A stretch of DNA of 64,000 nt, taken from the NCBI GenBank assembly GCA_947629645.1, contig CANREV010000010.1, positions 1 to 64,000 on the forward strand. The letters are read 5' to 3'. Below are positions 52,596-64,000 of this stretch, in pieces. Origin of the DNA: an uncultured Acetatifactor sp. (GTDB taxonomy: Bacteria > Bacillota > Clostridia > Lachnospirales > Lachnospiraceae). The notes beneath the pieces are model-generated. The model was not told the DNA's origin. It made no database searches and saw nothing but the letters and a program-made list of their open reading frames with translations. The number at the start of each line of letters is the position of its first letter. The first letter of the stretch is position 1. The translations under genes were made by a program, and so were the position numbers.

Positions 52596-54290
52596 ATGTT
52601 AAATAATCTGCATGATATAGCGATTTTGGCTCGAAAAAAATATAGGGAAGAATTTAAATCAACGGATGTTATTTTGCCGGAGGTTTTTAAAGAAGCTTTT
52701 GGCACATATCTGAGGAATAATTCTATGGATGTGAGCTATTCGATCTACACGGCTACCGTGACATCATCCCAAAATAAAATTATGTATATTCCTAATCAAT
52801 GGTTTGTTGCCGCGTCCTATATGGTTCCTTATATCAGTGAAATCATAAAATACAAAAACGCTGCAGAGGAAATTGTTGACGGCATTTTGGCAAACGGTAA
52901 AAATAAAAAAGAGTATTTTACCTATATGAAAAATGGCGCTTCGGACGCTGCAATAAAAGAGCTGCGCAAAAGTGCAAAACAATATTTTAGGAGACAACAG
53001 TCAGAGCATATTGATGGGGATGTTGAAAATATTGTGGATTTTATAACGGATTATGAATGGTGGTTTGGCAGTAAAACAGTAGACAGAGGGGATTATTACT
53101 TTTCCCCTGTCTTGTATCTTTTGGGATTGGTAAATGCCTCGCAGGGGTATGTGGCGGAAATTGCTTATTTGCTAACAACTGTGCCTGAACTGACAGTAAC
53201 GGCGAATGATTTGGCTGAAGGTGGCAAACGGATTTCAAATAGTATTGACACGGGAATATCTGCAAATATGTGCGCCCATTCTGTCAGGGCGACAGGCGGA
53301 ATGAATGAAATCGTATATGGTGCACCGGGTACAGGTAAAAGCAGGTATCTGGAAGATAAATATGGAAAGGCGCCACTTACAAGAAGGGTGGTTTTTCATC
53401 CGGAGTATTCTTATTATGATTTTGTCGGGGTGTATAAACCTGTTCCTGTGTATAAAAAATCAGATGAACATTTCGCAACTGTGAGCGGGCGGGAAACAGG
53501 AAGAGGAGAGCCCTATATTGATTACTGTTTTGTACCGGGTCCGTTTATGAAAGTATTAACGGAGGCGTGGCTTGATCCCCAAAATATGCATACTCTTTTA
53601 ATTGAAGAAATAAACAGGGCGGATGTGGCAGCAGTATTTGGGGAGGTTTTTCAACTGCTTGACCGCGATGTAAATGGTGAGAGTGAATACGCATTTGAAC
53701 CATCTGAAGATATAAAAGATTTTTTATGTTCTATTGACGGAATGGAAAAATATATCAGCAGCGGGATAAAAATACCCTCTAATATGAACATTGTTGCAAC
53801 CATGAATAGTGCGGATCAAGGGGTGAAACCGATGGATACCGCGTTTAAAAGAAGATGGAACTTCAAATACATAAAAACAGATATAAAAGGGACTATTTGT
53901 GAAAATGCGGTACTTGTTTATGCTGGGAGACAGGTATATTGGGGTAGATTGATTGAGCTGATTAATAGGAAACTAAGTAACGGTCTGCTTCAGATTGACG
54001 AAGATAAACTGATCGGCCCATTCTTTATCAAACCGGAGGAAATAGGAAAGAAACGGGCAATTGATAAGTTGCTTTTGTACTTATGGGATGATGTACTGCG
54101 TCATTCCAGGGACAGTTTCTTTAACAGTGAAGTAAAGAATTTTGCAGATTTATCAGAAGGTTTTGAAAAGAGTGATGTATTGGATATTTTTCAGGATCCG
54201 GCAGCTTTAAATAAATTGTTTGTTAATGTGGAGTCTGTGATTGACGGTGAAGATGTTGTAGAAGAAACGGAAACAGGAAATGAGGAATAG
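52596..54290 (+). CDS. McrB-like AAA+ NTPase subunit of a restriction system
   Basis: A 564-residue protein. The N-terminal 230 residues are a specificity-type region without strong motifs. The AAA+ core starts with Walker A GAPGTGKS (residues 242-249), continues with the Walker B LLIEEINRADVAAVFGE (acidic pair E337-E338) and the sensor segment MNIVATMNSADQGVKPMDTA followed by FKRRW. This arrangement is diagnostic of McrB/LlaJI.R1-type proteins that translocate DNA and drive a partner nuclease. GGAGAGATGAC precedes the ATG. It is followed after 3 bp by its nuclease partner. Confidence 0.9.
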   Translation: MLNNLHDIAILARKKYREEFKSTDVILPEVFKEAFGTYLRNNSMDVSYSIYTATVTSSQNKIMYIPNQWFVAASYMVPYISEIIKYKNAAEEIVDGILANGKNKKEYFTYMKNGASDAAIKELRKSAKQYFRRQQSEHIDGDVENIVDFITDYEWWFGSKTVDRGDYYFSPVLYLLGLVNASQGYVAEIAYLLTTVPELTVTANDLAEGGKRISNSIDTGISANMCAHSVRATGGMNEIVYGAPGTGKSRYLEDKYGKAPLTRRVVFHPEYSYYDFVGVYKPVPVYKKSDEHFATVSGRETGRGEPYIDYCFVPGPFMKVLTEAWLDPQNMHTLLIEEINRADVAAVFGEVFQLLDRDVNGESEYAFEPSEDIKDFLCSIDGMEKYISSGIKIPSNMNIVATMNSADQGVKPMDTAFKRRWNFKYIKTDIKGTICENAVLVYAGRQVYWGRLIELINRKLSNGLLQIDEDKLIGPFFIKPEEIGKKRAIDKLLLYLWDDVLRHSRDSFFNSEVKNFADLSEGFEKSDVLDIFQDPAALNKLFVNVESVIDGEDVVEETETGNEE

Positions 54291-54293
54291 GTT

Positions 54294-55574
54294 ATGTTTA
54301 CGGATCCGATTTGTCTTAATGACTCTATGTGTTATAACTTAAACAGGTATCCGCAGATATCAGATTTTCTGAAATACTATCCTGACATTTGCAGAGTTTA
54401 CGAAAGTTCCTTTCAATTTAGGTTTACAGGTGTTTTAATTATTAATGATATTCCTGTTATTTTGTTCCCTAAAAATTATGATATACCGGAAAGTGCGATG
54501 GAAAAATTTAAGCATGCCGGGATTTTTGTGAAGGTCTTGTTACGGTATCGTGACGAGCCGTATCATGCTGAGTCAGAAAATCAATTGCTGTATGGTTGCG
54601 GAAGCGATAATGCGAGGATAGCGGTGGCATTTCAAATTTTAGAGGATTATTTAGCCAATGGCATTTTGGAAAGAGAACAGATCTCGCTTTCTCATACAAA
54701 AAGCGGGAGAACTGACTGGGGCGCAACAATTCATACAACCATTCCGATGGTGAATCATCGACAGATACTATATGATGATACGATGATTCGTATCAGGAAA
54801 AAGGATGAGGAAAATCTGATCAGAAAAATCCATCAATATGTTGTGCATGAAGTAATCAGCATGTGGGGGTGGATGTATGATGTGAGTATGCCGGCTAATC
54901 TGTCAGATGCTGCATGTTTGCCTTGCCGGGAGAGGGATGCCATTGTTGCTTTATGTAATGAGTTAAAGCAAACATACATTCAGCGGGAGATAAGACTGAT
55001 AAAAAATATGATTTTATATCTGACCGCAAAATCCGGTTTGGAAAACAGAATGAATCAGGAAATTTTGGGAACACAATATTTTAGCTTTGTATGGGAGGCT
55101 GTATGTGGATATCTGTTTCATAATAAATATTTAATGATCAGGGAGATTATCCCACAACCGGAGTGGGAGGGGATTGATGGGAAAATATCCCAGCGGCCGG
55201 ATATTTTATCTGTTGAGGCGGAAACATTATATATCTTGGACGCAAAATATTACGATTACAATATTAATCTTCCCGGATGGCATGATGTGGTGAAACAGAT
55301 GTTTTACAGACATACAATCGTTCACAATTTAAATAGTAAAATTGGGAAAAAATTACTTCCGAATGTATGTGCGGTTAAAAATGTGTTTCTTTTTCCGGGT
55401 GAAGAATCTGAACGACTGAAATATCTGGGATGTGTTAAGGTGAAAGAGGATCCTGAGCTTGGAGAGGTTAAAGCCTATGCCATCAATCAGTGGGATGCCA
55501 TGAAGACATATGCATATAGAAATAATGACGGATACAGGGACGAGTTATTTGAAATTTTAAAACGGACCTGTTAA
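54294..55574 (+). CDS. LlaJI/McrC-type restriction endonuclease subunit
   Basis: A 426-residue protein. The C-terminal half carries a PD-(D/E)xK nuclease core: D303 in RPDILSVEAETLYIL and D316-A-K318 in DAKYYDYN, followed by the LPGWHDVVKQMFYRHT helix. The N-terminal half resembles the LlaJI/McrC coupling region. It starts 3 bp after the McrB-like gene, so the two form one unit. LlaJI in Lactococcus needs two methyltransferases, and none is visible here, so the pair may act as a modification-dependent (type IV-like) system, or the modification genes may lie elsewhere. Confidence 0.86.
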   Translation: MFTDPICLNDSMCYNLNRYPQISDFLKYYPDICRVYESSFQFRFTGVLIINDIPVILFPKNYDIPESAMEKFKHAGIFVKVLLRYRDEPYHAESENQLLYGCGSDNARIAVAFQILEDYLANGILEREQISLSHTKSGRTDWGATIHTTIPMVNHRQILYDDTMIRIRKKDEENLIRKIHQYVVHEVISMWGWMYDVSMPANLSDAACLPCRERDAIVALCNELKQTYIQREIRLIKNMILYLTAKSGLENRMNQEILGTQYFSFVWEAVCGYLFHNKYLMIREIIPQPEWEGIDGKISQRPDILSVEAETLYILDAKYYDYNINLPGWHDVVKQMFYRHTIVHNLNSKIGKKLLPNVCAVKNVFLFPGEESERLKYLGCVKVKEDPELGEVKAYAINQWDAMKTYAYRNNDGYRDELFEILKRTC

Positions 55575-56135: not shown

Positions 56136-57407
56136 TTAGAGAATATAATCGGTGATGCAATCGTACCAATGCACATAGGTCGTGCCGTTTACGGTAAGTC
56201 TGTCGTTTTCCGGCAGCTGTTCGCTCCACGGTGCTTTATAGCGGTCGATCGCCCAATCGTCACGATTGAATCTGCGCCACAGAATCGTCCTTCCGTTCTT
56301 ATCCAGAAACTGTTCGGACACTACGCCGCAATTATAGGTTTCAACATCCATCACACAGACAGTATCATAGCTTTTGCCGCCAATCGTGACGGTGTATCTT
56401 CCGACAATATCCAAAAGAAAATCTTTTTCGGCGGCTGTAACTACGCTGCCGACTCTTTTAATATCCCCCTTGGACGCCAGATTTGTTTCATTGCCGCAGT
56501 TATCTTCGCCAAAACCCCAGTTCGGCAGAAATTCGTCACCATCGAGGAAAGTAATATAATTCCGGATATCTCCATCGTTCCGGACTGTTGCAAGATAACG
56601 GCAATGCGTGTCGGTGAGCTGTGCGACAAAAGTGCGTTCGATCACGTTGTTTTTATCCGAACAGGACGCTTCACGGGCAGTCAGCTCTACGCCTTCGATG
56701 CCGTGAACCTTTGCTTTTCCGGTAACCTGCATATCGTATATATGGCTGCACTTTCGGGATGGTATATCATACATGCCCCATGACAGCTTTTCCCCAGGCT
56801 TCGGCACCAGAAACCATCCCATAAGCTCTTCCCATTTTACAGCAAAGGGCGCATCTGTCCTTGCTTCAATCTTATATTCGGGTATCAATTCAGGCAACTT
56901 TTTCATATTGATTTCTCCTTTCGATACTTCAGTGCGATACGGATACTTATTTTTGAAGTTTCGCTTTGCTGTGTGCAGTCTGCTTTTTACCGTTCCCACA
57001 GGGATGTTCAGCCGTTTTGCGATTTCCGATTGGGGCATCTCTTTCCAGAAGGAAAGATAAAGGATCTGCTTATCCTTATCTTCGAGTAAATCCAGCGTTT
57101 CCCTTACAACGTTGACCACGGAAACACCGTATCTGCTGTCTGACAGCTCACTGCCTGACAACTCATCAATCGGGATTTCATACTGATTTGCTTTTTTTCG
57201 GAAATAATCATTGCATTTGTTTCTTGCAATGCTGATGATCCATGCTTTAAACGAACTTTTTTCCTTCAACTGGGGAAACTTCCGATATGCTGTAAGAAAT
57301 ACTTCCTGCAGCACATCGTCCGCATCTTCCTTTGAAGGCATTCGAAATCTCACAAAGCGTTCCACGGATACGTGTTCTGTTCCCAGCAATTTTTCAAACT
57401 CATCCAT
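56136..57407 (-). CDS. ECF sigma factor fused to a C-terminal domain of unknown function
   Basis: A 423-residue protein. Residues 1-165 are a complete sigma-70 factor: region 2 with EDADDVLQEVFLTAYRKF and SFKAWIISIARNKCNDYFRK, and region 4 with QSEIAKRLNIPVGTVKSRLH. Residues 168-423 are a separate domain (PEYKIEARTDAPFAVKWEEL, WGMYDIPSRKCSHIYDMQVT) of unknown function. Met168 is preceded by an in-frame ribosome binding site (AAAGGAGAAAT, about 56911-56919), so the second part may also be made alone. The start MDEFEKLLGTEH follows AAAGGAGGTGGTGAT. No anti-sigma gene is adjacent. Confidence 0.85.
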   Translation of the reverse strand: MDEFEKLLGTEHVSVERFVRFRMPSKEDADDVLQEVFLTAYRKFPQLKEKSSFKAWIISIARNKCNDYFRKKANQYEIPIDELSGSELSDSRYGVSVVNVVRETLDLLEDKDKQILYLSFWKEMPQSEIAKRLNIPVGTVKSRLHTAKRNFKNKYPYRTEVSKGEINMKKLPELIPEYKIEARTDAPFAVKWEELMGWFLVPKPGEKLSWGMYDIPSRKCSHIYDMQVTGKAKVHGIEGVELTAREASCSDKNNVIERTFVAQLTDTHCRYLATVRNDGDIRNYITFLDGDEFLPNWGFGEDNCGNETNLASKGDIKRVGSVVTAAEKDFLLDIVGRYTVTIGGKSYDTVCVMDVETYNCGVVSEQFLDKNGRTILWRRFNRDDWAIDRYKAPWSEQLPENDRLTVNGTTYVHWYDCITDYIL

Positions 57408-57589
57408 ATCACCACCTCCTTTTTGCCTATGCATGATGAAAACCGGTTTTCACTTATATAGACGGGAATCGGTGTCAAAAGGTTCATTTTTGAAGGTTAT
57501 TTCATAAAAATGCTGCCCGTGTAACGCAGGCGGCGCAAACCAATGAGTTTTTTCCGATATCCTGTGCGGAGTTTTATCGGGCCTGTTTT

Positions 57590-57650
57590 ATTGCTGCGTA
57601 CAGGGCGGCAATTTGTCTGTTCATCGTGTAATCCTCCAAAATAACTCCGG
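57590..57650 (-). other. Possible recombinase start fragment
   Basis: On the minus strand a GGAGG site precedes the 16-codon frame MNRQIAALYAAIKQAR, like the first residues of serine recombinases (MNRxIAALYxRxS). It stops after 16 codons. Together with the remnant at 55570 it suggests recombinase debris. Low certainty. Confidence 0.25.
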
Positions 57651-57728
57651 CTGGGACAGGATCACGGAGATGAAGTCCTATGAGTGGGATGCGGGCAGAT
57701 TGATAGTTGTTTTCAGAGGTGGAGAAAA

Positions 57729-57768
57729 GGATCTGCATTTCATGTTGTATGAAGTGCAGATCTTTTTT
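57729..57768 (+). terminator. Terminator-like hairpin in the remnant region
   Basis: GATCTGCATTTCAT / ATGAAGTGCAGATC with a 5-nt loop and T6 after it. The upstream gene it once served is no longer recognisable. Confidence 0.7.
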
Positions 57769-57779
57769 CTTTGCGTTCC

Positions 57780-57837
57780 ATGACACCATGCTGCCGGAGA
57801 TCAACGGATATGAATTACTGGAGTATATAAAGCCCCT
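57780..57837 (+). pseudogene. Response regulator receiver fragment
   Basis: The frame encodes HDTMLPEINGYELLEYIKPL, which matches the phosphoacceptor region of OmpR-type receivers (xxDIMLPxxNGYELLExI). Nothing before or after fits a receiver domain. It is joined directly to a RhuM-like fragment. Confidence 0.6.
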
Positions 57838-58021
57838 TGAAAAATCAGAAATAAGATACAGGATGGTAAAATCAAGGCGGGGCGTTGAGTTCAGGCGTTA
57901 GGCTGATTCTGTATTGAAAGAATACATAATCAAGGGATATTCTGTGAATTATAACCGCATGAATCAGCTAAATGAGGTAATACGGATCATGAAAAGTAAT
58001 GCGTTCGGGAAGCATCTGTAA
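57838..58021 (+). pseudogene. RhuM-family protein fragment with a nonsense codon
   Basis: The frame continues SEIRYRMVKSRRGVEFRR, then TAG (57899-57901), then ADSVLKEYIIKGYSVNYNRM. In RhuM-type virulence proteins this is a continuous stretch with Trp (TGG) at the stop position (RxWAxxVLKEYxIKGYxxN). A single G-to-A change explains the stop. The fragment ends at 58019-58021. It has no start of its own and is fused to the receiver fragment. Confidence 0.65.
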
Positions 58022-58063
58022 ATGTAAAATAGAGAGAAAAATCTATTGTTACAGGAGGCAGTT

Positions 58064-58900
58064 ATGGAAAATGTGATCACACAGGAAGCTTTGCAGAGGT
58101 TTGCCGCTTATCTGCGGCGGGAGGAGAAAAGTACGGGGACGGTAGAAAAATATCTTCGGGACACGGCGGGATTTGCCGCCCACATGGACGGCGCGCCCGT
58201 CACAAAGGAGTCCGCAGCCGCCTGGCGGGACGAGCTTCTCGCTCGGGGCTATGCGCCAGTAACCGTCAACTCCATGGTGGCGGCAGTGAACGCCCTGCTG
58301 CGGTTTCTGGGCTGGGAGGACTGTCGGGTGAAGTCTCTGCGGCTCCAGAGGCGGGCGTTTCGGGATCCGTCTCGGGAGCTGAGCAGAGAAGAGTATGAGC
58401 GTCTGGTGGCGGCCGCCCAGGGCAATCCTCGGCTGGCGCTGCTTTTGGAGGCTATCTGTGGTACGGGCATCCGTGTCTCGGAGGTAAAGTATCTCACCGT
58501 GGAGGCGGCGAAAGCGGGCCGCGCGGATATCTTTCTGAAAGGGAAGGTGCGGACGATCCTGATTCCCGGAAAGCTCTGCCGGAAGCTTCTGCAGTACGCC
58601 CGAAAACAAAAGACCGCCTCCGGAGAGATCTTTCTCACCGGAAGCGGAAAAAGTCTGAACAGGCGGCAGATCTGGGCGGAGATGAAAGCCCTCTGCGGGA
58701 AAGCGGGGGTGGAGGCGAGCAAGGTGTTTCCACACAATCTGCGGCACCTGTTCGCTCGGACGTTCTACGAAGTCACTCGGGATATCGTGCGGCTGTCCGA
58801 TGTGCTGGGGCACTCGTCCGTTGAGACGACCCGAATCTACCTGGTCTCCACTGGGGCGGAGCACGCCCGAATCATGGAGCGGCTGGGGCTGGTTTCGTAG
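58064..58900 (+). CDS. Tyrosine recombinase, candidate DNA invertase
   Basis: A 278-residue phage-integrase-family protein of the XerC/D size class. A SAM-like N-terminal core-binding domain (about 1-90, FAAYLRREEKSTGTVEKYLR) precedes the catalytic domain. The active site is complete: R137 (GTGIRVSEVKYL), H224-x-x-R227 (PHNLRHLF), H250 (VLGHSSVETT) and Y259 (RIYLVS). The start follows AGGAGGCAGTT. Its stop is 3 bp before a 26-bp inverted repeat that bounds a promoter-bearing segment. The gene is GC-rich compared with the remnants upstream, as is the protein gene downstream. It could also be a Xer-like or element integrase, but the context favours inversion of the adjacent segment. Confidence 0.9.
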   Translation: MENVITQEALQRFAAYLRREEKSTGTVEKYLRDTAGFAAHMDGAPVTKESAAAWRDELLARGYAPVTVNSMVAAVNALLRFLGWEDCRVKSLRLQRRAFRDPSRELSREEYERLVAAAQGNPRLALLLEAICGTGIRVSEVKYLTVEAAKAGRADIFLKGKVRTILIPGKLCRKLLQYARKQKTASGEIFLTGSGKSLNRRQIWAEMKALCGKAGVEASKVFPHNLRHLFARTFYEVTRDIVRLSDVLGHSSVETTRIYLVSTGAEHARIMERLGLVS

Positions 58901-58903
58901 TGT

Positions 58904-58929
58904 ATCACAAAACAATTATTTTGTCCAAA
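58904..58929 (-). repeat. Left 26-bp inverted repeat of the putative invertible segment
   Basis: A perfect reverse complement of 59340-59365. The core ACAAAATAATTGTTTTG on the minus strand is itself a near-palindrome, as expected for a tyrosine-recombinase crossover site with two binding arms. It begins 3 bp after the recombinase stop codon. Confidence 0.92.
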
Positions 58930-59159
58930 GCGTCCGTGCGCTTCCCGGACAAGCCGCCGCAGGCACGCTTCCGCTATATAACGCCCGCAGCGGTACATAA
59001 CGCGCCATAGTACGGCGCATAAGTACCTGAGGCGCTAAAATGCCCTGCGCGCGGTCTTTTCTGGATCGTGCACAGGGCTGCACAAAAAAGTTTAAAACGC
59101 CTAGCTTCGGAAGGAGGGAAGGAAACTTCGGGAACGGCAAATGGCTATAAAAGGATACA

Positions 59160-59202
59160 ACGACCAGAGCCGCAAAGAATAGTCGTCTGCGGCTCTGGTC
59201 GT
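59160..59202. terminator. Strong 15-bp hairpin inside the invertible segment
   Basis: ACGACCAGAGCCGCA / TGCGGCTCTGGTCGT with a 13-nt loop. The following T run is broken (CCTGCCCTTTTCC), so it may be a terminator insulating the recombinase side from the promoter side, or a structural element. Confidence 0.6.
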
Positions 59203-59267
59203 CCTGCCCTTTTCCTGTCTTTTCCTATTTTATTCGACTTTTTATGCCATTTCCAAAGATACCCCTA

Positions 59268-59296
59268 TTGAATTTTGAAAACGCATGTAGTAAAAT
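59268..59296 (+). promoter_or_regulatory. Candidate sigma-A promoter inside the invertible segment
   Basis: TTGAAT (59268-59273), a 17-nt spacer and TAAAAT (59291-59296), directed toward the secreted protein gene at 59524. The expected start of transcription (about 59303) is inside the segment, so inversion would disconnect it. This window would represent the ON orientation. Confidence 0.6.
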
Positions 59297-59339
59297 CCAT
59301 TTTATAAGAAGGTCTCCCAAAGCAGGAAGCCTAGGCTCT

Positions 59340-59365
59340 TTTGGACAAAATAATTGTTTTGTGAT
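59340..59365 (+). repeat. Right 26-bp inverted repeat of the putative invertible segment
   Basis: It is the perfect inverse of 58904-58929 and contains the core ACAAAATAATTGTTTTG followed by TGAT. It lies 158 bp before the start codon of the downstream secreted protein gene. Confidence 0.92.
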
Positions 59366-59389
59366 CAAAGTCCCGGCACGGTGGTCACA

Positions 59390-59410
59390 ACAAAATAATT
59401 GTTTTGGGAT
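59390..59410 (+). repeat. Third copy of the recombination-site core
   Basis: ACAAAATAATTGTTTTGGGA plus T matches the right repeat (59345-59365) in 20 of 21 positions and has the same orientation, starting 45 bp further on. The surrounding sequence is not shared, so only the core is repeated. Confidence 0.85.
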
Positions 59411-59523
59411 AAACGTCTGGCGCACCTTGCGGCAGGTCGTCAGGCGCACCGCTTAGTAACGGAGCGAGGCGCTCCGGCATTTGATAGATTAGGATGGCTG
59501 CATATTCAAAGGAGGCTTTTGGT

Positions 59524-62500
59524 ATGAGATGCAGAATAAGACAATGGTTTGCAGGATTTCTGTCGGTGGTCATGCTCATTTCCATGCTGCCTGTGACCGC
59601 GTATGCGGAGGGAGGCGGCTCGCCGGAAAAAACTGCAATAGAGCAGATACAGGAGCTGATCGATGCTCTGCCCAATGCGGAGGAGATCACAGCGGACAGC
59701 CGGACAGCGGTACGGGAACAGATAGATGCCATAGAGGCGGCCCTGTCGGAACTGGACGGGGAAGAGACGGCAAAACTGGATGCTGCCCGCTATGAGGCGG
59801 CGCTGTCCGCGCTCTCTACCCTGGACAGCGCTGCAGGAGCCGAAACAGAAAATAATGGGGCGGACACCAACAACCGGAAGGGTACGACTCCGGTTTCGGA
59901 AAGCAATGAAACAGGATCGGACACCGTGACGGGCGGAGATCTGCACACGGGGACGGTTGCGAAACGAGTGCAGTCTATGATAGATGCCTTGCCGGATGCG
60001 GAAACCGTCACCGCCGACAATCGGGCCGATGTGGAGGCACAGCTTACGGCCATCGATGAGGCGAAGCTGGCCCTGTCCCAGGAGGAACTGGACGCCCTGG
60101 ACATCACCCGCTATAACAATGTCGTTTTGGCCTTACTTGCGTTGGAAGGGCTTTCCGGGGTCAATCAGATTGCTTTGTCGGCAACGGATCACAACATGGC
60201 AAACGGCAGCCTGACCATCAGCGCAGACGGCAGTTACACCGTCACCGGCACTACCACCTCCAATACGATCCTTGTGAAGAACAACGCACAGGTCACGATC
60301 ACCCTGAATAACGTGAGCGTGACCAGCAGTGGCTGCGCCTTTGACATCCAGAGCGGTAATGTGACGTTGATTCTGGCGGATGGGACGACCAACTCCTTCA
60401 CCAGCAACAACTATTATGCCGGTATCCATGTGGCGGAAGGCGCGTCCCTCACCATCGATGGCACAGGCACGTTAAACGCGGTCTCGAAACAAGTGACCGG
60501 TGTGTCAGCGCCCTTTGACAAGACTCTTGGCGCGGGCATCGGCGGCAACGGCGGTACCGATGTGATAAGCACCGAGGACAACGCGGGCAGCATCCTCATC
60601 AAGGGCGGCACGGTCAACGCCAAATGCGAGGGCGATGGCGCGGGTATCGGCGGCGGCTGGACCTGGGAGGAACATAAAGCACACGGGAGTTTTCAGTCTA
60701 TCACCATCACTGGCGGTAAAGTGACGGCAGAGAGCGGCGGTAACGGCGCGGGCATCGGCTGTGGCTGCTGGGCCGCTGAAATGGGGACGATCAACATAAA
60801 CGGCGGAGAGGTTCACGCCAAGAGCGCGTCACCGAACGGGGTATCCTATGCCATCGGGTACGCGCATAAAGACAAGGAGTTTGAAAGCAACATATCCGTT
60901 GAGGGCGGCGTGATCTTTACGGAGGGCCCCAATGGGCGCGGGATTGGCGCGGAGTCGCTGACGAAGAAGAACTGCCTGATTGTTTCCGAATCCAGCAGCG
61001 TTGAAATTAATGGGAACCCCACGATCACAGGGGACGTCACCCTTCCGGATGGCAAGACCCTGACGATCCCCTCCGGCAGCACCCTCACGGTAGCGGAAGG
61101 AGCGATGCTGACTGTGGCAAAAGGGGCAAACCTCACGGTAGCGGCAGGAGCAACGCTGACCGTGGAAACAAATGCGGAGCTGACCGTAGCGGAAGGGGCA
61201 ACGCTGACGAACAACAACAAGATTGTAAACCATGGGAAGATCGTTCAGGATGGAACCATCAACGGAAGCGGGACGATGGAAGGAAATCCGGCCGCCGTTT
61301 ACAAGCTGAGCGTCACCGCTCCTGTTTTGGCCAGCGCGACAGAGGGCTACAGCCAGCCCGAGGCCCAGCCCATAACCATCCAAAATACAGGCACCATGGA
61401 GGCTGCGATTTCTAAGGTAACGGTCAGCGGCAGCGAATTTACGATAAGCGAAGACGGGGGATCCGATCATACGGTCGCGGTTGGCGGGACAAACACAAAC
61501 TGGAAAATTCAACCCAGAACCGGACTTATGACAGGGATTCACACTGCCACCGTCACTGTCACCTACGATGGCGGCAAGACGGCAACGGCACAGGTATCTT
61601 TTGTCGTGAAGTATGCTGAGGATGTTCTGTTGGATGTTTCCAAAAGGTCTCTGCGCTTTGATTCTGACGGCCGGTATACCGTCACGGGAACCACGAGCGC
61701 AAATACCATCACCGTGACCGGAGGCAATGTGGAGCTTGTGCTGGACAGCGTAAGCATTACCAGCGGCGCCTGCGCCTTTGACATCCAGGGCGGCAAAGTG
61801 ACGCTGATCCTGGCGGACGGGACCACCAATTCCTTCACCAGCGGCGGAGGTAACGCGGGTATCCAAGTTGCCGAAAACGCATACCTCACGATCAAGGGAA
61901 ACGGCGCGCTGAACGCCACCGCGAAGAAGCCCAGCAATACTTCCAGCGGTGCGGGCATTGGCGGGCATTCGGCGAAAACGGCGGGACATATCACTATCGA
62001 GAGCGGGACTATCACAGCCAAAAGCGAAAGTAGCTGTGACGGTGCGGGTATCGGCGGCGGTCATACCAGTGAGAAAGGCCAAGGCGGAGGATTTCAGTCT
62101 ATCACCATCACTGGCGGTAAAGTGACAGCTGAGAGTGGCGGTAACGGCGCGGGCATCGGTGGTGGGTGCTGGTGCAAGAATATGGGGACTATCACCATCA
62201 GCGGCGGGGAGATCCATGCAAAAACAAACGGGACAAATAACTCTGTCACCACTGGAAATAAGTCATTCGCCATTGGTTATGGGTACGGATCCAGTAAAGG
62301 GGGCACAATTACCATCACTGGCGGCTTGATTTTTGCGGAGAGCAAATACGGTCGTTATATTGGCGCAGCAAGCGCACCAACGCCAACAAACTGCGTGGTC
62401 TTCAAAAACGATAGCGGCGTTGACTTTAACGGAAACCCCACGATCACAGGTAATGTTACGCTCAGCAAGAACCTGACGATCCCCTCCGGCCACACCCTCA

Positions 62501-64000
62501 CGGTAGCGGACGGAGCAACGCTGACTGTGGCAAAGGGAACAACGCTCACGGTATCGGAAGGTGCGCAGCTGACCGTGAAAGAAAATGGAACGCTGATTGT
62601 GGAAGGGACGCTGACCAACAACAACACTATTCAGAATGACGGCACGATCAATCAGCTTGGGACAATCGATGGATCAGGAACGATAAACGGAAAACAGCCC
62701 GGAAAGTACGGGCTGAGCGTTGCTGTTTCTAATTTTGCCAGCGCGTCAGAGGGCTACAGCGTGTCCGAGGTCCAGCCCATAACCATCCGGAATACGGGCA
62801 CTATGGAGGTCACGATTTCCGATGTAACGGTTAGCGGCCATGACTTTACGATAAGCAAAGACGAAGGATCCGATAATACGGTCGCGGTTGGCGGGACAAA
62901 CACGAGCTGGAAAATTCAACCCCAACCCGGGCTTGCCGCAGGAAATCACACCGCTACGGTCACGGTTACCTACAACGGAGGCAAACCGGCGACGACACAG
63001 GTATCCTTTGCCGTGACGTACGCCCCCGGCGATACGCTGGATGTTTCCAAACGATCTCTGCTCTTTGATTCGGACTGCCAGCATACTATCATAGGAACCA
63101 CGACCGCGAATACCATCACGGTGACCAAAGGCAACGTGGAGCTTGTGCTGGACAGCGTAAGCGTCACCAGCGGCAAGTGTGCCTTTGACATCAAGGGCGG
63201 CAATGTGACGCTGATCCTGAAGGACGGAACCACCAATTCCTTTATCAGCGGCGGCCATTATGCCGGCATCCATGTGGCGGAGGGCGCGACCCTCACGATC
63301 AAGGGGAACGGTACGTTGAACGCCACCGCGAAGAAGCCCGGCGATACTATCAGCGGCGCGGGCATCGGCGGAAATTACGATGACAACGCCGGCAGTATCA
63401 CGATTGAGAGCGGTACGGTCGTTGCCAAAAGCGAGGGCGATGGCGCGGGCATCGGCGGCGGTCATGCCAACGACAATGCCGACCATAAATACGGACAATT
63501 CAAGTCCATTACGATTAACGGCGGTAAGGTGACGGCGGAGAGCGGCGGCAACGGAGCCGGTATCGGCTGCGGCTGCTGGGCAAAGGCCATGGGGCCTATC
63601 AATATAAACGGCGGCGAGATCCATGCCAAGACCGCATCGACAAAAGCCTACGATATCGGCTACGGGTATAAAAACGATGGCGATGAGTTTGATAGTACCA
63701 TCACCATAAAAGGCGGTGTGATCTTTACTGAGGGCACCAGGAATCGCGGGATTGGCGCGAAGTCGTCGACGAAGGAAGACTGCCTGATCGTCCCTTACTC
63801 CGGCAATGTTGAGTGCTGCGGGGATCCTACGATCACAGGCGATATTACGATCCCCTCCGGCAAGACCCTGACCGTTCCCGCCGAGCAGACCCTCACGGTA
63901 GCGGAAGGGGCGACCCTCACGATAGTGGAGGGAGCAACGCTGACGGTAGAAAACGAAGGGACGATTGTAAACAATGGCAGAATCATCATTTACGGGACGA
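59524..64000 (+). CDS. Very large secreted repeat protein, beta-helix adhesin-like (partial, runs off the window)
   Basis: An open frame of at least 1492 codons. The signal peptide is MRCRIRQWFAGFLSVVMLIS ending TAYA. Two helical repeats follow (IDALPNAEEITADSRTAVRE, about residues 25-95, and IDALPDAETVTADNRADVEA, about 150-215). Then come three modules of about 470 residues. Each has a Cthe_2159-like carbohydrate-binding beta-helix (LILADGTTNSFTS, GAGIGG, TITGGKVTAESGGNGAGIG), a solenoid of LTVAEGATLTV repeats, and an Ig-like spacer (EGYSQPEAQPITIQNTGTME to VTVTYDGGKTATAQVSF). It is probably cell-wall bound through a C-terminus outside the window. AAAGGAGG precedes the ATG. Expression is probably controlled by the upstream invertible segment. 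Confidence 0.88.
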   Translation, partial: MRCRIRQWFAGFLSVVMLISMLPVTAYAEGGGSPEKTAIEQIQELIDALPNAEEITADSRTAVREQIDAIEAALSELDGEETAKLDAARYEAALSALSTLDSAAGAETENNGADTNNRKGTTPVSESNETGSDTVTGGDLHTGTVAKRVQSMIDALPDAETVTADNRADVEAQLTAIDEAKLALSQEELDALDITRYNNVVLALLALEGLSGVNQIALSATDHNMANGSLTISADGSYTVTGTTTSNTILVKNNAQVTITLNNVSVTSSGCAFDIQSGNVTLILADGTTNSFTSNNYYAGIHVAEGASLTIDGTGTLNAVSKQVTGVSAPFDKTLGAGIGGNGGTDVISTEDNAGSILIKGGTVNAKCEGDGAGIGGGWTWEEHKAHGSFQSITITGGKVTAESGGNGAGIGCGCWAAEMGTININGGEVHAKSASPNGVSYAIGYAHKDKEFESNISVEGGVIFTEGPNGRGIGAESLTKKNCLIVSESSSVEINGNPTITGDVTLPDGKTLTIPSGSTLTVAEGAMLTVAKGANLTVAAGATLTVETNAELTVAEGATLTNNNKIVNHGKIVQDGTINGSGTMEGNPAAVYKLSVTAPVLASATEGYSQPEAQPITIQNTGTMEAAISKVTVSGSEFTISEDGGSDHTVAVGGTNTNWKIQPRTGLMTGIHTATVTVTYDGGKTATAQVSFVVKYAEDVLLDVSKRSLRFDSDGRYTVTGTTSANTITVTGGNVELVLDSVSITSGACAFDIQGGKVTLILADGTTNSFTSGGGNAGIQVAENAYLTIKGNGALNATAKKPSNTSSGAGIGGHSAKTAGHITIESGTITAKSESSCDGAGIGGGHTSEKGQGGGFQSITITGGKVTAESGGNGAGIGGGCWCKNMGTITISGGEIHAKTNGTNNSVTTGNKSFAIGYGYGSSKGGTITITGGLIFAESKYGRYIGAASAPTPTNCVVFKNDSGVDFNGNPTITGNVTLSKNLTIPSGHTLTVADGATLTVAKGTTLTVSEGAQLTVKENGTLIVEGTLTNNNTIQNDGTINQLGTIDGSGTINGKQPGKYGLSVAVSNFASASEGYSVSEVQPITIRNTGTMEVTISDVTVSGHDFTISKDEGSDNTVAVGGTNTSWKIQPQPGLAAGNHTATVTVTYNGGKPATTQVSFAVTYAPGDTLDVSKRSLLFDSDCQHTIIGTTTANTITVTKGNVELVLDSVSVTSGKCAFDIKGGNVTLILKDGTTNSFISGGHYAGIHVAEGATLTIKGNGTLNATAKKPGDTISGAGIGGNYDDNAGSITIESGTVVAKSEGDGAGIGGGHANDNADHKYGQFKSITINGGKVTAESGGNGAGIGCGCWAKAMGPININGGEIHAKTASTKAYDIGYGYKNDGDEFDSTITIKGGVIFTEGTRNRGIGAKSSTKEDCLIVPYSGNVECCGDPTITGDITIPSGKTLTVPAEQTLTVAEGATLTIVEGATLTVENEGTIVNNGRIIIYGT
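60190..64000 (+). repeat. Three tandem 1.4-kb modules in the secreted protein
   Basis: The landmark YTVTGTTTSNTI is encoded at 60235, its counterpart at 61675 and the third at 63082, giving periods of 1440 and 1407 bp. The third module is cut by the window end. Long runs such as the segment encoding GGKVTAESGGNGAGIG are nearly identical at DNA level. Confidence 0.85.

Follow-up and report, generated by a model that had tools for sequence, protein, structure and literature searches.

Does the short DNA segment that separates a tyrosine recombinase gene from the start of a giant surface protein gene in an uncultured Acetatifactor sp. (Lachnospiraceae) invert, and would its inversion switch this gene on and off? 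The locus lies near the right end of the 64,000-nt stretch of DNA analyzed here (contig CANREV010000010.1, or C10, of assembly GCA_947629645.1; hereafter, the window). We conclude that it is very probably a self-contained promoter-inversion switch, in which the adjacent recombinase would flip a 410-bp segment and thereby turn a secreted surface protein of 3,192 residues on or off. The evidence comprises the layout of the locus, the occurrence of both orientations of the segment between colinear flanks in related genomes, and the recurrence of the same arrangement in a cassette family of gut Clostridia. A preliminary description had proposed an invertible-promoter ON/OFF surface switch; the layout and the two orientations found in relatives agree with that proposal, and its model, Clostridium difficile cwpV, is replaced below.

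Organization of the locus

The features of the locus, in window coordinates, are the following.

58064-58900, plus strand: tyrosine recombinase, presumed cognate invertase (PF00589 and PF02899 above cut-off)
58904-58929: left inverted repeat (IRL), site core ACAAAACAATTATTTTGT (repeat and site search)
58930-59339: invertible segment of 410 bp; its predicted promoter faces the giant gene (ON), and the segment is inverted in G397:C20 and L011
58935-59068: about 130 bp with similarity to a dispersed repeat of genome G397 (sequence matches in relatives)
59149-59213: strong hairpin between A-rich and T-rich flanks, putative two-way terminator/insulator
59268-59296, plus strand: predicted sigma-A promoter TTGAAT-17-TAAAAT, towards the giant gene (consensus scan; family-conserved distance from the site)
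59303-59523, plus strand: predicted 5' leader in the ON state; contains R1, R2 and, next to the gene, a conserved stretch of 112 nt (putative start site)
59340-59365: right inverted repeat (R1; repeat and site search)
59390-59407: third site copy (R2), oriented as R1 and 45 bp further right; its match with IRL reaches 59414; kept in G397:C20
59524-64000, plus strand, on to contig base 69102: giant secreted repeat protein, 3,192 aa (domains; AGGAGG upstream at 59510-59515)

The recombinase open reading frame (ORF) is intact, in accord with the complete gene reported in the preliminary description, and encodes 278 aa with matches to the Pfam domains Phage_integrase (77.3 bits) and Phage_int_SAM_1 (29.5 bits). 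The catalytic-looking residues of its motifs GTGIR, HNLRH, LGHSS and IYL, which presumably serve catalysis, align with XerC-like, XerA and XerD chains. Among the NCBIfam models, the XerA/XerD-like ones gave the best scores, below their cut-offs; the tyrosine-type DNA invertase models PRK09870 and PRK09871, which we take to cover the fim recombinases, scored 25.7 of 221 and 28.5 of 222 bits, likewise short of the cut-offs. No close paralogue of the recombinase was found in its own genome, where the next match is 31% identical (E 3.9e-10).

Only 3 bp separate the recombinase stop codon from the left arm of an inverted repeat, whose two arms of 26 nt are 100% complementary and lie 410 nt apart; every coordinate previously given for this repeat holds. 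The repeat scores 22/22 in 22-nt windows, and 294 shuffled controls placed alike over the cassette family never exceeded 17/22. The two sites described earlier are both present, and a third copy, R2, had been overlooked. Within the 3.15-Mb assembly, site copies with at most two mismatches number three, all at this locus.

The giant gene (59524-69102 on contig C10) runs past the window end at 64000. Its 3,192-residue product, rightly placed by the preliminary description beyond the right repeat as a giant secreted repeat protein, begins with a signal-peptide-like sequence, contains beta-helix and bacterial Ig-like domains, and ends in a hydrophobic stretch that has a basic tail. The predicted leader is structured (minimum free energy (MFE) -79.5, z -3.68). 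Its part at 59412-59523 is 96% identical in G397:C20 and in genome G398, with a weak fold of its own (z -1.86); a search of five genomes with this part returned just the same locus in three of them and one paralogue in G397. In the fold of the whole leader, the ribosome-binding region pairs with bases directly left of R1.

Both orientations in related genomes

Searching one genome per species, we obtained 207 related stretches and retained the best 80. In contig C20 of G397, the Acetatifactor genome that also holds locus L029, window positions 58905-59365 matched on the minus strand and the flanks on the plus strand. The flanks are colinear with the window (94.7% over 301 bp on the recombinase side, 92.9% over 1,180 bp on the gene side), and the inner segment is inverted (91.8% over 415 bp), with junctions at IRL and R1 and with the third site kept. 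The same combination, plus-strand flanks and a minus-strand segment (88.6% over 464 bp), occurs at L011 from an uncultured Acetatifactor sp. Since the segment is inverted between colinear flanks, we predict that the window is in the ON orientation and that both relatives are in the OFF orientation, with their promoter facing the recombinase gene. A single orientation in all reads and related genomes had been named in the preliminary description as evidence against a switch; our comparison, made in related genomes rather than reads, found both orientations.

A second, independent case of inversion was found between L020 and loci L014, L022, L023, L024, L025 and L028 (80-86% over 58-210 bp). An all-against-all comparison of 118 segments (the cassette set defined below) gave 496 similar pairs, 447 of them within a single genome, G149. 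Eight of the 496 are opposite-strand pairs, two with the window and six with L020, and all eight join a cassette called ON by its promoter to one called OFF.

Orientations were counted from assemblies, which tend to keep the majority orientation. Among the 80 loci, contig ends within 100 bp of the recombinase match were found downstream in 7 cases and upstream in none; within 1,000 bp the counts are nearly equal (13 vs 11), so contig ends are a weak sign of mixed orientation. The start of the giant gene occurs a second time in G397, accompanied by a site and by part of the segment, on the reverse strand near the end of contig C91 (L145). In this copy the promoter part is replaced by other sequence near the contig end, and the site core differs from that of the C20 cassette of the same genome.

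Predicted promoter, hairpin and third site

The rightward TTGAAT-17-TAAAAT noted earlier inside the segment is present, and the consensus scan found four promoter-like sites in total, compared with a shuffle mean of 0.6. The ON call for the window is clear (11.6 vs 0.8) only when promoters are limited to 30-62 nt from the site.

The hairpin region (59140-59240, 101 nt) folds with an MFE of -39.6 kcal/mol (z -6.1, 0 of 200 shuffles). A terminator consensus scan found two sites (shuffle mean 0.8) and, at the hairpin, nothing longer than 5-pair sites; because neither of the two spans the long hairpin, we can only infer that the hairpin acts as a two-way terminator/insulator. The stretch at 58935-59068 has counterparts at 10 other places in G397 (82-87%) and at 2 others in G398, and no second copy in its own genome at E 0.001. 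This stretch may explain part of the excess length of the window segment over the family median.

The third site may be functional. Relative to the window, CAATTA is replaced by CAAATA in each of the three sites of G397:C20, and this common change of the core suggests that R2 takes part in strand exchange. Right-hand site pairs spaced 44-50 bp apart were found in the window, G397:C20, L065 and L096, and more than two sites (at most three mismatches) occur in 14 of the 118 cassettes. The near-palindromic sequence of the sites could also let R1 and R2 pair with each other in the ON leader RNA, forming a long hairpin (59340-59410; MFE -21.9, z -3.18).

Cassette family in gut Clostridia

The preliminary description had not recognised this locus; by sequence comparison it is a member of a large and widespread cassette family of gut Clostridia. 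The recombinase was found at E 1e-30 or better in 101 of 397 sampled genomes of its own taxonomic family, the genome of the window included. We collected 111 loci, namely the best 80 from the species scan, the 29 best-scoring ones from the 397-genome search, the window and G397:C20. Of these, 98 were testable, the others having no stop codon (2) or too little downstream sequence (11).

A repeat of at least 17/22 near the recombinase stop was detected at 74 of the 98 loci, compared with 4 of 294 shuffled controls. The distance between the 22-mers has a family median of 230 bp and is 418 bp in the window. A promoter 30-62 nt inside the site (score of at least 10) is present in 78% of the 74 segments vs 1.6% of 370 shuffles. 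Under this distance limit, the promoter was called as pointing away from the target in 60 segments and towards it in 9, including the window, with 5 ambiguous.

The set was then extended to 118 cassettes by removing L111, which is the same place as L147, and by adding 45 of 58 further regions with a repeat score of at least 16; the other 13 had no stop codon (2), were too short (2) or scored lower (9). The 58 regions represent recombinase matches in four genomes (38 of 38 in G149, 6 of 6 in G253, 6 of 7 in G046 and 8 of 13 in G029), and G361 with its 6 matches was left out. Some measures use subsets of the 118: 112 in one family comparison, 99 distinct cassettes with even-axis left sites, 114 for target ORFs and 107 for the distance correlation.

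Among the 118 cassettes, 96 were called OFF, 14 ON and 8 ambiguous. In the 91 OFF cassettes with a promoter score of at least 8, the -10 box faces the recombinase and lies 47-109 nt (median 77) from its stop codon. Of the 91 cassettes testable by the longest open frame in 1,500 nt (27 of the 118 were too short), 72 have a rightward target side. By the same measure, the side upstream of the recombinase shows no preference (81 cassettes: 31 right, 36 left, 1 none, 13 too short). Of 114 cassettes, 111 have a rightward ORF of 150 aa or more that begins within 1.2 kb, a count taken with no shuffled control, and 77 of these 111 ORFs are signal-peptide-like by a simple rule. Local hairpins of -20 kcal/mol or better are found in 77 of 114 segments, compared with 25 of 114 shuffled ones (best of three shuffles each). 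A collection of viral contigs gave nine pattern matches, none of which was confirmed as a relative.

Site cores and duplicated cassettes

Aligned on their symmetry axis, the sites have a consensus of roughly ACA[AGT]AAT-NNNN-ATT[ACT]TGT. From one cassette to another, the four central bases differ freely, and at each of these positions the left and right sites agree in 97-98% of the 99 distinct cassettes. Left-right mismatch is 0-6% at the 12 central positions, compared with the 66-74% expected at the four central bases if the two sites were independent. Matching left and right cores are needed by tyrosine recombinases for strand exchange. Site and recombinase distances correlate across 107 cassettes (Mantel r 0.24 to 0.48, 0 of 500 permutations), a correlation for which shared ancestry alone could suffice. 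Residues covarying with site position -6 were listed and set aside, being confounded by ancestry.

The largest set of copies is that of G149, a 5.7-Mb genome of the same taxonomic family, with 38 recombinase matches at E 1e-30 or better (L147-L184); these include a match of only 29% identity, a partial match and a match interrupted by an internal stop. Orientation calls in this genome are 34 OFF, 3 ON and 1 ambiguous without the repeat filter, and 30, 1 and 1 with it. Downstream of many of its cassettes lies the gene for a large protein whose start resembles a membrane anchor. A signal-peptidase-like motif, set by eye, occurs within 2.5 kb of at least 20 of the 38 matches, and the sole such protein tested (L154) belongs to Peptidase_S26. 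The 31 axis-aligned cassettes of G149 have 21 different 8-nt cores, with left and right cores equal in 27 of the 31. A core is shared by 12 of the 465 between-cassette pairs and by 1 of the 11 pairs whose recombinases are at least 85% identical. This pattern fits switches that would become independent of each other after duplication; drift could also produce it. In L153 and L173 of the same genome, the cores are in direct rather than inverted relation, and a further site, the third, lies some 800 bp away from the recombinase stop; these two cassettes may be broken.

Proposed mechanism and alternative explanations

In the proposed promoter-inversion switch, the adjacent recombinase, as the presumed acting enzyme, would flip the segment between IRL and either R1 or R2. 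In the ON state, transcripts would start at about 59303 and pass through the structured leader (59303-59523) into the giant gene. In the OFF state, the inverted promoter would fire leftwards into the 3' end of the recombinase gene, where antisense interference with the recombinase may result. The hairpin inside the segment would insulate both sides, and the choice between two right ends would yield two leader lengths.

An extended form of this reading is tentative and, in our judgment, has less than an even chance of being correct. According to it, the cassettes are self-latching, insulated switches: the OFF promoter is antisense to its own recombinase, so that OFF would hold itself and ON would be short-lived; site cores would change together after duplication, so that each copy flips only itself; G149 would hold a large silent surface repertoire; and the third site of the window would add a second ON leader length. 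If this were true, the short life of the ON state would account for the 96 of 118 cassettes assembled OFF, and the self-restriction of each copy would account for the accumulation of 38 recombinase copies in one genome.

Several observations weigh against the promoter-inversion switch or limit it. Minus-strand promoter-like sites of equal score (9/12) are found at 59256-59227 (two overlapping readings) and at 58927-58899, and a scan of the whole segment with no distance limit is ambiguous for the window (13.1 rightward vs 11.3 leftward). With this limit lifted, the 74 segments divide into 52 left, towards the recombinase, 6 right, towards the target, and 16 ambiguous, the window among the last. 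A TGn motif, which is present in 53 of the 96 OFF and 8 of the 14 ON cassettes, is absent in the window. In fourteen same-strand pairs, one partner was called ON and the other OFF (12 with L173, one with L039 over 43 bp and one with L192); thus, some promoter calls are wrong, and that of L173 is untrustworthy, this G149 cassette lacking a good promoter and having sites in an odd relation. The promoter calls are good, not faultless. L011 lacks R1 and the bases beside its sites deviate from a clean IRL-R1 flip, which implies extra events in this locus. The repeat threshold is missed by 24 of the 98 loci, some of which have degraded sites, and at least 2 of the 74 hits look off-register (L025 and L099). 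The left-right agreement of the cores is partly favoured by picking sites as the best repeat, and the genome of the window encodes further tyrosine recombinases. Finally, the inversion is seen between representatives of different species, as compared in their assemblies, and not within one strain or population.

Other explanations of the same layout account for the data less well. Under attenuation of the cwpV type, the promoter would lie outside the segment and the flipped DNA would make or break a terminator in the leader RNA. The strong hairpin of the window and the excess of hairpins among family segments speak for it, as does the precedent of cwpV, a Clostridia surface gene with a short inverted segment (PMC2784873). 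However, the family as a whole retains a promoter within the segment at a set distance from the site, the hairpin would read nearly alike after flipping because its flanks are A-rich and T-rich, and the recombinase gene is adjacent here, whereas recV lies away from cwpV (PMC2784873); we regard this explanation as very unlikely. A locked relic, a locus that flipped in the past and no longer inverts in this strain, appears just as improbable. The 24 of 98 relatives with weak or missing repeats indicate that decay probably occurs in the family, but the repeat of the window is perfect over 26 bp, its recombinase ORF is intact, and in G397:C20 all three cores changed in concert.

The two remaining explanations reassign the enzyme or the target. 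The Pfam domains of the recombinase are integrase domains, as would be expected if it were the ordinary integrase of a phage or an integrative and conjugative element (ICE) and unrelated to the repeats. This is hardly credible given that the order of recombinase, repeat, promoter and gene recurs in dozens of genomes, that site and recombinase distances correlate, and that the viral contig collection holds no confirmed relative. Alternatively, the leftward orientation could be the functional one, with the switch mainly controlling the recombinase or an upstream gene. In its favour, 96 of the 118 cassettes are leftward, with the promoter pointing into the recombinase gene; the lack of a preferred gene strand upstream of the recombinase, together with a rightward target side in 72 of 91 cassettes, makes it extremely unlikely.

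The locus adds, for a lineage of gut Clostridia, a candidate phase switch with good support that would act on a giant surface protein, and the cassette of recombinase, site, promoter, site and surface gene is common in its own family. Since each cassette brings its own enzyme and often has a site core of its own, the family provides naturally occurring recombinase-site pairs with which to study how sites are chosen and whether switches gain independence after duplication. The OFF bias, along with the 38 recombinase matches of G149, poses the testable question of how a bacterium keeps most of its surface repertoire silent.

Neighboring genes

To the left of the locus, the window encodes a McrB-like AAA protein followed by an LlaJI-type restriction protein (52596-55574), both matched by restriction enzyme models, and, on the minus strand (56136-57434), a protein whose ECF sigma factor domains precede a long C-terminal region with no Pfam match. 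To the right of the window, positions 70706-74831 of contig C10 (L090:13707-17832) hold a likely Wadjet remnant, in which a single ORF matches the N-terminus of JetA and then approximately the last 70% of JetC, with JetD next; JetB did not turn up there, and no search was aimed at it. No tRNA genes were found in the 64-kb window. An Rfam scan of 57400-60000 gave three matches, all to microRNA families and all below the gathering score.

Comparison with known systems

The layout is of the Escherichia coli fimS/fimE kind and not of the C. difficile cwpV kind. As outlined in PMC2784873 and PMC5386303, fimS with FimB/FimE likewise has a promoter in a short inverted segment, a tyrosine recombinase gene beside this segment, and a surface structure encoded downstream. 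The window differs by having one recombinase, where fim has two, by its third site, and by a recombinase that falls below the cut-offs of the NCBIfam tyrosine-type DNA invertase models. According to the same sources, fimE is controlled by segment orientation via a Rho-dependent terminator in OFF (PMC2784873, PMC5386303); in the window, orientation may control the adjacent recombinase by a different route, namely antisense transcription.

The cwpV/RecV pair, the model chosen in the preliminary description, is not the right one, because in the account given by PMC2784873 the cwpV promoter lies outside the flipped DNA, a 195-bp segment with no promoter, and recV is at another locus. The C. difficile flagellar switch, on which RecV also acts, is similarly described with no promoter in the flipped DNA (PMC5386303). 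Both C. difficile switches resemble the present one in using a tyrosine recombinase, with imperfect inverted repeats of 21 bp in C. difficile, and in serving surface structures in Clostridia (PMC2784873, PMC5386303). They are set apart from it by the predicted promoter inside the window segment and by the recombinase gene that lies next to the left repeat.

The Bacteroides capsule switches, also cited earlier as a parallel, share with the window invertible promoters for surface products and are flipped by Mpi, a serine recombinase. In PMC5386303, Mpi is presented as one master enzyme acting on at least 13 switches. The parallel does not extend to such a many-site master enzyme: the window has a tyrosine recombinase, and its three sites (at most two mismatches) are confined to one locus.

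Gut invertible promoters were reportedly surveyed by Jiang et al. in 2019, and inversion in Clostridia is the subject of another earlier survey (PMC5903667). Among published sets, inverton group 139 with invertase group 35 (PMC11892184) comes closest and, as judged from its description, is probably of the same kind as the family described here. As summarized in that source, 32 of the 33 invertons of group 139 come from Clostridia and nearly all have a nearby tyrosine-type recombinase; its examples include Clostridium sp. D5 and Intestinimonas butyriciproducens, where the published coordinates put 227 bp between the repeats, and orientation shifts were seen in reads (PMC11892184). We found two cassettes of the present family in I. 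butyriciproducens An565, with promoters towards the target and with 270 and 253 bp between exact repeats. The two sets share a species (the published 227-bp inverton being from another strain), the layout and a similar segment length, and the window differs from group 139 by its longer segment of 410 bp and by its three sites (PMC11892184). No description of a three-site form or of a genome with dozens of copies was found in the titles and abstract openings of the openly licensed literature on Oscillospiraceae, Lachnospiraceae and other Clostridia.
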